The notes under the pieces: generated by a model
The model's database searches: none
What the model saw: only the letters and a program-made list of their open reading frames with translations
What the model was told of the DNA's origin: nothing
Assembly: GCF_028463845.1 (NCBI RefSeq)
Contig: NZ_CP116805.1
Location: 1,984,001 to 2,048,000, forward strand
Length of the DNA: 64,000 nt
Reading direction: 5' to 3'
Source: Gimibacter soli
Lineage (GTDB): Bacteria; Pseudomonadota; Alphaproteobacteria; Sphingomonadales; Kordiimonadaceae
Shown: positions 982 to 14,302 of the stretch, in pieces
Position numbering within the stretch: position 1 is the stretch's first letter
Layout: every line of letters begins with the position of its first letter
Translations under genes and position numbers: made by a program

Positions 982-3326
<2,345 letters not shown>

Positions 3327-3338
3327 GGTGCCTCGGGC

Positions 3339-4652
3339 ATGACGCCCGCTGCCCGTATCGCAGCCGCCATCGAACTTCTCGACGAGATCGAGAAGGCGAT
3401 GGTGTCGCGCGGCGCACCGGCCGACGCGATTGTCGCCAGCTTTTTCCGGGCGCGCCGTTATGCGGGCTCGGGGGATCGGCGCGCCGTAACCGGGCTTGTC
3501 TATGGCATCCTGCGCTGCCGGGCGCTCCTTGTGCATATGGCGGGCGCTGCCGGGCTTGAGCCTACAGCCCGTGCGCTGGTGATTGCTGCCCTGAAGCTGG
3601 ACGGTGAAGCACTCGATATGTTCGGCACGGAAGACCGTTTCGCGCCGGCGGCGCTGACACCTGCGGAAGAGGGCATGTCGGTGGATGTGGGCAGTGCGCC
3701 CGAAGATGCCCGCCTGAATATCCCGGATTGGGCGGCGGCTGGCCTGCATGCCCGCTTTGGTGACGCCTTGGCGCCCGCCATGACTGCACTCGCCGAAACC
3801 GCCCCGCTGGACCTGCGCATCAACCCGCTGAAACGGGTCAGTGAAAAGATAATCAATAACTTTAATAATGATTTTGAACTTATTGATTTAAAAGAATATA
3901 CAGAAATTTCGATTCGCAGCGCGCATCACCGCATGCTGACCAACGAAGCGCTCTACCGCGATGGTCAGATCGAGGTGCAGGATGTGGCCGCGCAGGTTGC
4001 CTCGCTGCTTGTCGGTGCTAGGCCCGGCGAGCAGGTCGTCGACTTTTGCGCGGGCGCGGGCGGCAAGAGCCTCCTGATGGCGGCGACCATGGAAAACCAT
4101 GGTCAGATCCATGCCTTCGACATTTCAGGGAAACGGCTGGACGCGCTGAAGGAACGCGCCAAGCGCGCCGGTGCCCACAATATTCAGGTCAAACGGCTGC
4201 CGTTCGAGGATGACGAGCGGTCGGCGCTGCAGCGTCCGCTCCTTGGCCGTATGGACCGGGTTGTCGTTGATGCGCCGTGCTCGGGCAGCGGCACTTGGCG
4301 GCGCAACCCGGACCAGCGCTGGCGGCTTGATGATGCCGCGCTTGCAGAGCAGGCAGCGCTGCAAGGCTCGATCCTCAAGGAGGCCTCGGCGCTCGTGAAG
4401 CCCGGCGGGCTGCTGGTTTACATGACCTGCTCGCTGCTGCCGGCAGAAAACGAGGCGGTTGCCGATGCGTTTGCCGCAGATAACCCGGATTTCGTCCGGC
4501 GCGATTTCCGCGATTTCTGGACGGGGCCGTGGCTCAAAGGCGAGGCGCCCGCATCGCTTGCCCTGAATGGCACCGACCTGCAGCTGGCGCCGCATACCCA
4601 CGCCACAGACGGTTTCTTCATTGCCTTCTTCGAACGCAAGCCCGGCGCATAA
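3339..4652 (+). CDS. rsmB: 16S rRNA (cytosine-967-C5) methyltransferase RsmB
   Basis: This 437-residue protein of the RsmB/Sun/NOP2 family methylates C967 of 16S rRNA using SAM. An N-terminal NusB-like helical domain (about residues 1-130) precedes the catalytic domain, which has the SAM motif DFCAGAGGKS. The two family cysteines are C314 in DAPCSGSG and the catalytic C364 in MTCSLLP. The gene starts 12 nt after guaB. One segment is odd: codons for about residues 167-191 (nt 3841-3900) are extremely AT-rich, roughly 17% GC by hand count, and read SEKIINNFNNDFELIDLKEY. The protein length around this segment looks normal for the family, so it resembles a replaced or drifted segment more than an insertion. 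Confidence 0.94.
   Translation: MTPAARIAAAIELLDEIEKAMVSRGAPADAIVASFFRARRYAGSGDRRAVTGLVYGILRCRALLVHMAGAAGLEPTARALVIAALKLDGEALDMFGTEDRFAPAALTPAEEGMSVDVGSAPEDARLNIPDWAAAGLHARFGDALAPAMTALAETAPLDLRINPLKRVSEKIINNFNNDFELIDLKEYTEISIRSAHHRMLTNEALYRDGQIEVQDVAAQVASLLVGARPGEQVVDFCAGAGGKSLLMAATMENHGQIHAFDISGKRLDALKERAKRAGAHNIQVKRLPFEDDERSALQRPLLGRMDRVVVDAPCSGSGTWRRNPDQRWRLDDAALAEQAALQGSILKEASALVKPGGLLVYMTCSLLPAENEAVADAFAADNPDFVRRDFRDFWTGPWLKGEAPASLALNGTDLQLAPHTHATDGFFIAFFERKPGA
3841..3900 (+). other. AT-rich islet with inverted repeat inside rsmB
   Basis: Only 10 of these 60 bases are G or C, whereas the flanking coding sequence is strongly GC-rich. A perfect 9-bp inverted repeat lies inside it: AATCAATAA at 3851-3859 and TTATTGATT at 3880-3888, separated by 20 nt. 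The frame stays open across it. Confidence 0.85.
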
Positions 4653-4737: not shown

Positions 4738-5259
4738 ATGACTTTCTTGAACCTGCGCAAATCCATCACCGGTGCGGCCCTCTGTGCGCTTCTGGCGGCC
4801 CCCGTGGTGGCGGCCCAGACGGCGCCCCAGTATCAGGCCCTGTCGAAAGATCTGGTGACGCAGGCGGAGGCCGCCCTTGCCAAGGATGCAGCCGACGCGC
4901 AGCTCCTGTTTGAACGCGCGCTGGTGGCAGACCCTGCAAATGTTGAAGCGCTTGTGGGCCTTGGCCATGCGTTTGAAGAGCAGGGCAAACTAGGCCGCAG
5001 CCTGAAATATTACCGGCAGGCCCTCGAAATCCGCCCGAACAATGTGGTGGCACTGGAAAGCCAGGCGCTGGCCTTCCTCAAGCGCAAGCTGCCGGACCGT
5101 GCCGAGCGCAACCGTGCCCGCATCGCCGAGATTTGCGCGAACGATTGCCCGTCGCTGGATAAAGTGACAGCCGCTATCGAGGCGCATCACGCTGCAGCCG
5201 AAGCTGCCGACGCCAAGTCCAAAATGGCGGACGCAACGCCCGCCACTGAAGGGCGCTGA
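4738..5259 (+). CDS. Secreted tetratricopeptide-repeat protein
   Basis: The 173-residue product starts with a probable signal peptide: a basic n-region, then a hydrophobic stretch ending near VVAAQT. Residues of about 45-115 form TPR-type helix pairs, with the pattern LFERALVADPANVEALVGLG followed by YYRQALEIRPNNVVALE. The C-terminal 40 residues are Ala-rich. The ATG at 4738 was chosen because GAGGA precedes it and the signal peptide begins there; the frame extends upstream into the end of rsmB. It probably acts as a protein-binding scaffold in the periplasm. The specific partner is unknown, and no enzyme domain is seen. Confidence 0.8.
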   Translation: MTFLNLRKSITGAALCALLAAPVVAAQTAPQYQALSKDLVTQAEAALAKDAADAQLLFERALVADPANVEALVGLGHAFEEQGKLGRSLKYYRQALEIRPNNVVALESQALAFLKRKLPDRAERNRARIAEICANDCPSLDKVTAAIEAHHAAAEAADAKSKMADATPATEGR

Positions 5260-11434: not shown

Positions 11435-14302
11435 CTATTCTGCCGCCACACGGGCGAGAACCGGGGCCAGATACTGGCCGGTATAGCTGCGCGGATTGTC
11501 GGCCACTTCCTCGGGCGTGCCCACGGCCACAATCTCGCCGCCGCCATCGCCGCCCTCGGGGCCAAGGTCGATGATCCAGTCGGCGGTCTTGATGACCTCG
11601 AGATTGTGTTCAATCACCACAACCGTATTGCCCTGATCAACGAGCGCCTGCAGGACTTCCAGAAGCTTCCTCACATCCTCGAAATGCAGGCCGGTGGTCG
11701 GCTCGTCCAGAATATAAAGCGTCTTGCCGGTGGAGCGTTTGGAAAGCTCCTTGGCGAGCTTCACGCGCTGGGCTTCGCCGCCCGAAAGCGTGGTGGCCTG
11801 CTGGCCAACGCGGATATAGCCGAGGCCGACTTTTTCGAGCATTTCAAGCTTGGTACGGATAGCGGGCACGGCCTTGAACAGCTCGACGCCGTCTTCAACC
11901 GTCATATCAAGAACGCCTGATATCGATTTGTCTTTAAAGCGAACTTCCAGTGTTTCGCGGTTGTAACGCTTGCCCTTGCACTGGTCGCATTCCACATAGA
12001 CATCCGGCAGGAAATGCATCTCGATCTTCAGCATGCCGTCGCCCTGACAGGCCTCACAGCGCCCGCCCTTCACGTTGAAGGAGAAGCGGCCCGGCTTGTA
12101 GCCCCGCGCCTGCGCTTCAGGCAGGCCCGCAAACCAGTCGCGGATCGGCGTGAAGGCGCCGGTATAGGTGGCGGGGTTGGAACGCGGCGTGCGGCCGATG
12201 GGGCTCTGGTCGATGTCCACGATCTTGTCGAGATGCTGCAGGCCTTCGATGGCATCATGCGCGCCCGGCACTTCGCGGGCACCGTTCAGATGCTTGGCGA
12301 CGGCCTTGTAAAGCGTCTCGATCGTGAAGGTGGATTTGCCGGAGCCCGACACGCCAGTGACGCAGGTGAGGGTGCCGAGCGGGATCGAGGCGGTCGCACC
12401 TTTCAGGTTGTTGGCGGTGGCCCCCTTGATCGTCAGCTTCTTGCCCTTGTGGCCGGTGCGGCGCATGGCCGGGATGGGCACGCTGCGGGCGCCGGTCAGA
12501 TACTGGCCGGTCATGCTTTTTGGGTTGGCCATCACCTCGGCAGGGGTGCCTTCGGCGACAATCGTACCGCCATGCTCGCCGGCACCCGGTCCCATGTCGA
12601 TCACATAGTCGGCCACACGAATGGCGTCCTCGTCATGCTCCACCACCAACACGGTATTGCCGATATCACGCAGGTTCTTGAGCGTTTCCAGCAGCCGGTC
12701 GTTGTCGCGCTGATGCAGGCCGATGGAGGGCTCGTCGAGCACATAAAGCACGCCTGTGAGGCCGGAGCCGATCTGGCTGGCAAGGCGAATACGCTGGCTT
12801 TCGCCGCCAGAAAGCGTTCCGGATGAACGGCTTAGTGTAAGATATGAAAGTCCGACATTAACAAGAAAACCGAGCCGGTCCTGAATTTCCTTCAGTACCT
12901 TGGCGGCAATCTGTTGCTGCTTGTCGGTCAGTTGATCGGGCAGCGCGGTGAACCAGTCGTGCGCGGCTTTCACCGACAGGCTGGAGATTTCACTGATGGG
13001 GCTGGTGCCCACCTTCACGGCCAACGCTTCGGGCTTCAGGCGGGCGCCGTTGCAGGCCGAACAGGTGGTGGCGGCCTGATAGCGGGAAAGTTCCTCGCGC
13101 ATCCAGTTGCTGTCGGTTTCGCGCCAGCGCCGCTCGATATTGGTGATCACGCCTTCAAACGGCTTGCGGGTTTCAAACCGCCGCTTGCCGTCGGCATAGA
13201 CAATGGTGATGGCCTCGTTACCGGTGCCATAAAGGATCGCCTTCTGCGCCTTCTCGGGCAGCTTGCTCCAGGGCGTGCGGGTGTCGCAGCCATGATGGTG
13301 CGCCACGGCCTCCAGTGCCTGAAAATAGAAGGGTGACGGGTTCTGCAGCTTGTTCGACCAGGCGGCGATGGCACCATCGATGAGCGACTTGGTGTGATCG
13401 GGCACCACAAGGTCGGGATCGAAATAGAGCTGGTTGCCAAGCCCGTCGCAGGTGGGGCAGGCGCCATAAGGGTTGTTGAAGGAGAAAAGCCGGGGCTCGA
13501 TCTCTTCAATCGTGAAGCCGGAAACCGGGCACGCGAACTTGGCGGACATCAGGTGGCGGGCTGGCGCTTCGCCGTCAGCCGGCTTGTCGGCCATCTCCAC
13601 GATGATCAGGCCATCAGAAAGCTCGAGCGCGGTTTCCACGCTGTCTGCCAAGCGCTGGGCGAGGCCTTCCTTGATCACAAGGCGGTCCACCACCACTTCG
13701 ATCTCGTGCTTGATCTTCTTGTCGAGCGCCGGGGCTTCCTCGATGAGGTAAAACTCGCCGTCGATCTTCACGCGCTGAAAGCCGCGCTTCTGCAGCTCGG
13801 CCAGTTCCTTCTTGAACTCGCCCTTGCGGCCGCGCGCGATGGGGGCAAGGAGGTAAAGCCGGGCGCCATCACCCAGCGCGATGATGCGGTCCACCATCTG
13901 GCTCACCGTCTGGCTTTCGATAGGGAGCCCGGTGGCGGGTGAATAAGGGATGCCGACGCGCGCCCACAGAAGGCGCATATAGTCGTAAATCTCGGTCACC
14001 GTGCCGACGGTCGAGCGCGGGTTCTTGCTCGTTGTTTTCTGCTCGATGGAAATCGCCGGCGACAGGCCCTCGATATGGTCCACATCCGGCTTCTGCATCA
14101 GTTCCAGAAACTGGCGGGCATAGGCCGACAGGCTTTCCACATAGCGGCGCTGGCCTTCGGCATAGATTGTATCGAACGCCAGCGAGGACTTGCCGGAGCC
14201 TGAAAGGCCGGTGATCACCACCAGTTTGTCGCGCGGGATATCCACATCGACGGATTTCAGATTGTGTTCACGCGCACCGCGGACGGAAATTTGGGTCAGC
14301 AT
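11435..14302 (-). CDS. uvrA: Excinuclease ABC subunit A
   Basis: UvrA is the damage-recognition ATPase of nucleotide excision repair. The 955-residue product has two ABC modules: Walker [10 protein letters not shown] near residue 32 with its signature [12 protein letters not shown], and Walker [10 protein letters not shown] with signature [15 protein letters not shown]. The C-terminal zinc finger is intact (CEACQGDG...CDQCKGKR). In the first finger one CxxC is replaced by CPVSG, which I recall as usual in alphaproteobacterial UvrA, while CPTCDGLG is kept. It diverges from the GFA gene, and a LexA-type box lies in the shared promoter region. It ends in Ala-Ala-Glu. Confidence 0.97.

Follow-up and report, generated by a model that had tools for sequence, protein, structure and literature searches.

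The rsmB gene of Gimibacter soli raises the question of why a short stretch inside a conserved and otherwise GC-rich coding sequence should consist largely of A and T, and whether this composition has been imported, has arisen by drift, or is kept. In the window, by which the whole analysed stretch of 64,000 nucleotides is meant, rsmB occupies positions 3339..4652 of the forward strand and codes for a protein of 437 amino acids of the 16S rRNA m5C methyltransferase family, as judged from the open reading frame, its PF01189 match and the folds discussed below. A recount confirmed the ten G/C among the 60 nucleotides of 3841-3900 which had drawn attention in an earlier note on this DNA, but the true low-GC tract is wider, extending over about 3834-3926 of the same strand (3834..3926, codons 166-196), with a GC content of 0.30, measured on codons 166-195, versus 0.66 for rsmB outside this tract. 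The lowest 60-mer GC is 0.15, at position 3849; given a window mean of 0.614 and an sd of 0.065, this value is too low by about 7 sd. In a sample of the same genome, whose 41 stretches add up to 864 kb or about 24% of 3.59 Mb, a single place, which is intergenic, has a 60-mer GC below that of the rsmB islet. The most AT-rich 60-mer of this sample (0.133, at L233:10735) is located between a TonB-receptor-like and a LacI-like gene, as named by reading the translations. Inside the islet, a core at 3867..3914 of the forward strand (codons 177-192) carries A or T at most of its third codon positions; per codon, this applies to 0.71-1.00 of the 17 islet-bearing genes, with a value of 1.00 at codons 180, 183, 187, and 190. 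No Rfam family matched at E <= 1 over rsmB, and the 3' end of the islet presumably resembles helix 31 of the 16S rRNA, a likeness recognized by eye only.

The gene harboring the islet can be placed by features of its product. The protein matches the RsmB/F methyltransferase domain PF01189 with 144.4 bits (cut-off 27) and contains C314 and C364, which are invariant in 18 aligned sequences and which we take to be the catalytic pair. Structure comparison yielded 2yxl, 1sqf, and 1sqg as the best solved folds, including those of E. coli Fmu (RsmB; 1sqf and 1sqg, E 3.8e-23 and 5.5e-22, respectively). Because the score for TIGR00563, the NCBIfam rsmB equivalog, is 192.4 bits and stays below the cut-off of 269.05, the protein is filed as a member of the RsmB family, with C967 as its putative target nucleotide. 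Its predicted structure has a mean pLDDT of 93, with values of 66-84 around the islet, and shows the islet residues before the methyltransferase domain, forming a helix at 169-178 and strands at 181-183 and 191-194. The length of the protein is in line with other RsmB proteins, as the earlier note had held, being identical to that of the congener and similar to those of other relatives.

A foreign origin of the islet, either as a recombination tract from an AT-rich donor or as a domesticated palindromic insert like those of Rickettsia, was suggested by its striking local composition together with a perfect 9-bp inverted repeat. This repeat is indeed present on the forward strand, with its left arm AATCAATAA at 3851..3859 and its right arm TTATTGATT at 3880..3888, both read from the sequence, but it is marginal and unremarkable for the composition of the islet: when the 60-mer was shuffled 2000 times, an arm of 9 bp came up in 4% of the cases, and among 30 genes the repeat occurs only in the window gene (L002) and its congeneric counterpart (L003). 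Rickettsia palindromic elements are AT-rich, lie in frame, and carry an inverted repeat. The islet shares all of these properties, but differs from such elements in that it is no insertion, that no other copy was found, and that its palindrome is not conserved. Relative to RsmB homologues, no in-frame insertion is apparent at the islet, whose length in residues equals that in many of 17 aligned relatives and exceeds that in the others by at most one; a few relatives bearing deletions are shorter there, L011 having its deletion at the islet position. The search for further copies of the islet, which the earlier note had proposed, returned a single match of the 160-nt islet region in its own genome at E <= 0.001, and no similar DNA was present in phage and plasmid collections at E <= 0.01. 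As to a recombination tract, the congener and 14 further genes of the family are AT-rich at the corresponding position and have diverged to an ordinary extent, so that relatives sharing the segment and diverging gradually, the very finding named beforehand as speaking against an unusual origin, have nearly been obtained. A recent foreign event is contradicted by the occurrence of the islet in the congener and across the family, and both versions of a foreign origin are highly improbable. As judged from the sequence comparisons, the islet is native to rsmB and was not acquired as a foreign tract or through insertion of a palindrome. An SPxGxR-like motif encoded at the islet is common to the RsmB proteins of relatives and outgroups; the RsmB encoded in the window has itself lost it.

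A view on the relatives shows that an AT-rich patch recurs at a fixed place of rsmB across one family of the Alphaproteobacteria, the class being taken from named relatives and the family being presumably Kordiimonas-like. Full-length rsmB genes were obtained from 25 of the 29 family genomes, the exceptions being G006, G022, G326, and G329, in three of which guaB was likewise not found. In 16 of these 25 genes, including that of the congener (G001), the GC content of the islet segment is lower than elsewhere in the gene by at least 0.18 (0.18-0.43), while four show a weak islet (0.05-0.11 below) and five none. Looking at synonymous choice only, a residual of -0.25 or lower in the islet segment was found in 11 of the 25 family genes, compared to one of 28 genes from other families of the order (L029), two of 80 named outgroup genes (L100 and L123), and none of 40 genes from the class. 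The strongest 25-codon synonymous dip of rsmB falls at residues 166-200 in 16 of the 25 family genes, against about 8% expected from position alone; the respective values for the outgroup samples are 4/28, 11/80, and 2/40, with dips of -0.25 or lower located elsewhere in rsmB in 8/28, 12/80, and 9/40 genes. Seemingly the same RsmB locus is represented in two of the samples in the cases of L030/L059, L057/L304, and L093/L335. The two outgroup genes mentioned, L100:3001-4317 from Burkholderiales and L123:3001-4200 from Xenophilus, both with a GC3 of about 0.9, show dips of -0.32 and -0.38 at the islet codons and have the dip codons GCA GCT ATC AAA ... GTA GCA ACG in common, although their identity at the dip is not outstanding compared to the rest of the gene. 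Within the family, carriers and non-carriers are interleaved in an unrooted tree of four neighboring proteins from 17 regions, indicating that the islet is either old and was lost several times or was gained repeatedly; since the family genes share ancestry, the counts given here overstate the number of independent events. The lineages carrying the islet are about 50% identical in RsmB.

The composition of the islet is only partly a matter of the encoded residues. The mean GC content falls from 0.557 to 0.320, of which about 60% (0.557 to 0.412) is due to amino acid content and about 40% (0.412 to 0.320) to synonymous choice. After correction for amino acids, the 16 carriers use G/C-ending codons to within 0.07 of the expected level throughout rsmB outside residues ~157-213, whereas at residues 172-195 the deviation reaches -0.34. 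The A/T third positions of the core hold across 17 genes whose GC3 elsewhere ranges from 0.36 to 0.75, and Lys is always encoded there by AAA and Glu nearly always by GAA, whatever the genome. As an example, SPIGFR is encoded as TCG CCC ATC GGG TTC CGG in the islet-less L011 and as TCA CCA ATT GGA TTT AGA in L007, and SPIGYR in L006 as TCA CCA ATT GGA TAT CGT, despite a GC3 of about 0.7 in the rest of that gene. Between carriers, the identity of codons for the same amino acid is 0.72 in the core versus 0.28-0.43 in the other stretches measured, which mostly reflects composition: the excess over codons for the same amino acids in other islet columns amounts to 0.13, which is the maximum over 25 windows and is followed by 0.10. 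At fourfold sites, the ratio of A to T is 47:39 in the islet versus 496:883 outside (p 0.0008, ignoring relatedness), i.e., the islet prefers A on the mRNA strand. The two congeners differ at 15 of 81 nucleotides of the islet, with an amino acid identity of 0.70 as opposed to 0.92-0.93 in the flanks; the islet changes faster than its surroundings, which indicates that its composition is kept while its sequence turns over.

Such rapid change might also be expected if the force that keeps the gene GC-rich were absent at this spot and the islet had settled at an AT-rich mutational equilibrium. Among the alternatives to selection, such a mutational or recombinational oddity of local extent has to be taken most seriously, even if we consider it unlikely. 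It is in agreement with the fast divergence between the congeners and with the fact that the islet contains the least conserved protein windows; an additional islet of the same genome in a gene of the PolyA_pol family, described below, is also strongly diverged from the congener. Conversely, other rsmB windows matching the conservation at the center of the dip (pairwise protein identity 0.27-0.31) keep their codon use within 0.07 of expectation, the fourfold A:T ratio is unlike that of the rest of the gene, and no reason is known why such a spot should persist across lineages as distant as these. Drift toward AT under relaxed constraint is disfavored, given that codon use is normal in other windows of roughly equal variability, although the very lowest conservation values (0.19-0.23) are still found only inside the islet. 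Taken together, it is probable that selection of some kind at the nucleotide level keeps the islet A/T-rich. Of the suggestions of the earlier note, the data favor the third, a local composition connected with a putative mRNA or cis-regulatory role.

Synonymous dips in single genes are not rare; what is unusual here is that their position is shared. In the sample from the same genome, 9 of 373 open reading frames, some of them false, show a 25-codon dip of -0.45 or lower; rsmB reaches -0.50, but was skipped by the gene finder and is therefore unranked in this table, which includes false reading frames. A scan of 15 neighboring genes, each represented by 10 to 17 of 17 regions, gave the deepest dips for uvrA (-0.27) and rsmB (-0.22, non-carriers included), followed by guaB with -0.16 at the gene start. 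A second region of 17 genes yielded two lowest dips of -0.15, both at gene starts, and a lowest internal one of -0.14. Among the genes of both regions, a comparable conserved internal dip is present in uvrA only.

The uvrA gene (11438-14302, minus strand) contains a synonymous element at the level of sequence at 11901-11938, which was kept in 8 of the 11 uvrA copies read in the neighborhood set. With up to three mismatches, the pattern TTTAAARACAAATCNATATCNGAYGTTCTTGAYATGAC was found in 12 of 385 genomes of the class, belonging to ten families and including the genome studied here; some of the carriers have a GC3 near 0.9, and a reversed-pattern control gave 0. Across 29 members of the class, the mean dip at this element is mild (-0.06), and the gene dips more deeply elsewhere. 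Viral contigs contained no match to a related exact pattern, and Rfam returned for this stretch one miRNA match far below its cut-off. Another synonymous dip of uvrA (-0.46) is located at codons 478-502 (12797-12871, minus strand), a stretch that also heads the list of GC dips in the region of the congener, where rsmB was not among the reading frames kept. The additional AT-rich islet mentioned above (L048:3392-3486, corresponding to G000:C1:2983392-2983486) has a 60-mer GC of 0.22 and lies near the 3' end of the PolyA_pol-family gene; it is weaker in the congener (GC 0.48 versus 0.64 in the rest), and the largest drop in 25 other alignable genes of the family is 0.11 (L196 was not aligned).

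As to the level at which the islet may act, the arrangement of the genes points to a shared message. The guaB gene (1851..3326, forward strand, the start at 1851 being chosen by eye) is located directly upstream of rsmB, which starts after a gap of 12 nt from the guaB stop, and both are likely part of one operon, to which the gene for a small TPR protein downstream (4738..5259, forward strand, found in 16 of 17 regions) possibly also belongs. The gene order ppx-rlmE-guaB-rsmB is kept in 17 of 17 regions, including those of islet non-carriers, and guaB ends close to the rsmB start in 16 of them (about 530 nt before rsmB in G018), suggesting that rsmB is probably read from the guaB message. The predicted folding of the mRNA over codons 100-300 is weakest at the islet, with about -7 kcal/mol per 60 nt as compared to -12 to -20 beyond its shoulders. 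RNase E is known to act at the motif RNWUU, and the corresponding RNWTT words occur in 17 of 17 islets at 4.5 per 100 nt versus 1.7 outside; their number of 68 exceeds the 47 obtained for the same protein with the codons of the own gene (reached by 0 of 300), but not the 75 expected from islet composition. The predicted unpaired fraction is not above that of codon shuffles either (mean z -0.56). With neither value in excess, nothing beyond composition points to RNA.

A precedent comes from the puf operon of Rhodobacter, where RNase E is reported to initiate processing of the mRNA at AU-rich sites in the coding sequence of pufQ and pufL, and intragenic cuts shape the abundance of the message segments (PMC6238624). 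The rsmB islet is similar in being AU-rich and in lying within the coding sequence of an operon from the Alphaproteobacteria, but differs in that its cleavage is a prediction, that it recurs as a composition across a family, and that it shows no enrichment of RNase E motifs beyond composition. Weak folding, the preference for A, the RNWTT words, and this precedent favor the idea that the islet may be a processing or decay site in the guaB-rsmB message, which we propose tentatively and with somewhat less than even confidence. Selection at the nucleotide level would then hold some 50-90 nt of rsmB A/T-rich while the protein turns over quickly, and within the polycistronic mRNA the islet would form a patch that is A/U-rich and folds weakly. 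A nuclease, for which RNase E or one like it is our guess from precedent, might cut or enter there, and the cut would lower the rsmB part of the message relative to the guaB part. An argument against such a site is that guaB also precedes rsmB in relatives which have no islet. Among the 80 outgroup loci, 33 have guaB within 3 kb before rsmB, and none of these shows a strong dip.

The patch could also be read as duplex DNA, either as an internal promoter or as a binding site for IHF, a xenogeneic silencer, or another nucleoid protein, which appears improbable to us. Its length and composition are like those of AT-rich non-ORF tracts of the genome, some of which surely are promoters, and the use of both A and T at fourfold sites would suit a reader of low specificity, whereas the shift of A over T at these sites is strand-specific. 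The best score for the IHF consensus is 7.71, compared to 7.09 for codon shuffles and 7.43 for randomizations encoding the same protein (reached by 2 of 200), and an FNR-like word behaves similarly, somewhat above chance, but seven motifs were tried and the IHF-like sites are found at shifting positions. Matches of the sigma-70 type score 8.0 versus 8.1 in codon shuffles of 17 islets, and none of the sigma-70, CtrA, DnaA, and GANTC motifs is enriched in the islets. A promoter-like match, GTGAAA-17-AATAAT, at 3841..3869 of the forward strand (9 of 12 positions; one found, 0.4 expected) is probably due to chance. Moreover, the islet is present irrespective of whether the gap between rsmB and the TPR gene measures about 60 or about 500-650 nt. 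A report on MucR ties its targets to AT-rich foreign genes in alphaproteobacteria (PMC8857273), and the islet resembles such MucR-bound DNA in its composition, but is unlike it in that seven islet carriers have no MucR match, for which reason MucR was rejected as the reader. The MucR/Ros family PF05443 has no match in 8 of the 29 family genomes (G012, G013, G015, G016, G018, G019, G023, and G329), all of them islet carriers except G329, which is without full-length rsmB; this suggests that MucR was lost in one clade of the family. A role in pacing translation, in which the codon patch would slow the ribosome about 15-45 codons past the N-terminal helical domain and so assist folding, seems still more doubtful. 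The islet does lie 15-45 residues past a long predicted helix (130-151), its codons are rare in the GC-rich members, with L002 and L006 showing the lowest values of all gene windows, and conserved clusters of rare codons are already known (PMC5438181). The islet is comparable to them as a position-specific, conserved, and synonymous intragenic signal, but conserves A/T content rather than rarity: its codons are as common as those of the rest of the gene or commoner in L007, L013, L023, and L029, and close to the rest in L010, L012, and L018, and the constant choice of AAA and GAA in the core holds in any genome. Codon rarity was therefore discarded as the conserved property, being found in the GC-rich members and missing in the GC-poorer ones.

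Irrespective of the molecule that is read, A/T content itself may be what is selected, in all three codon positions of some 16-30 fixed codons of this housekeeping gene and with little specific sequence, in a large part of the family. We regard such a composition-coded element as rather unlikely, if conceivable; if it existed, it would represent a class of intragenic signals missed by searches for motifs and structures, and the nearby uvrA would carry a counterpart conserved in sequence. In the titles and abstract openings surveyed, nothing refers to such an islet in rsmB. The finding cautions against taking every AT-rich islet of a core gene for foreign DNA, and the rsmB genes of this family, 16 with the islet, 4 with a weak one, and 5 without, offer a ready natural experiment. 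If the islet is selected, local base composition inside a core gene could be inherited as a signal that depends neither on codon rarity nor on a motif or RNA structure.
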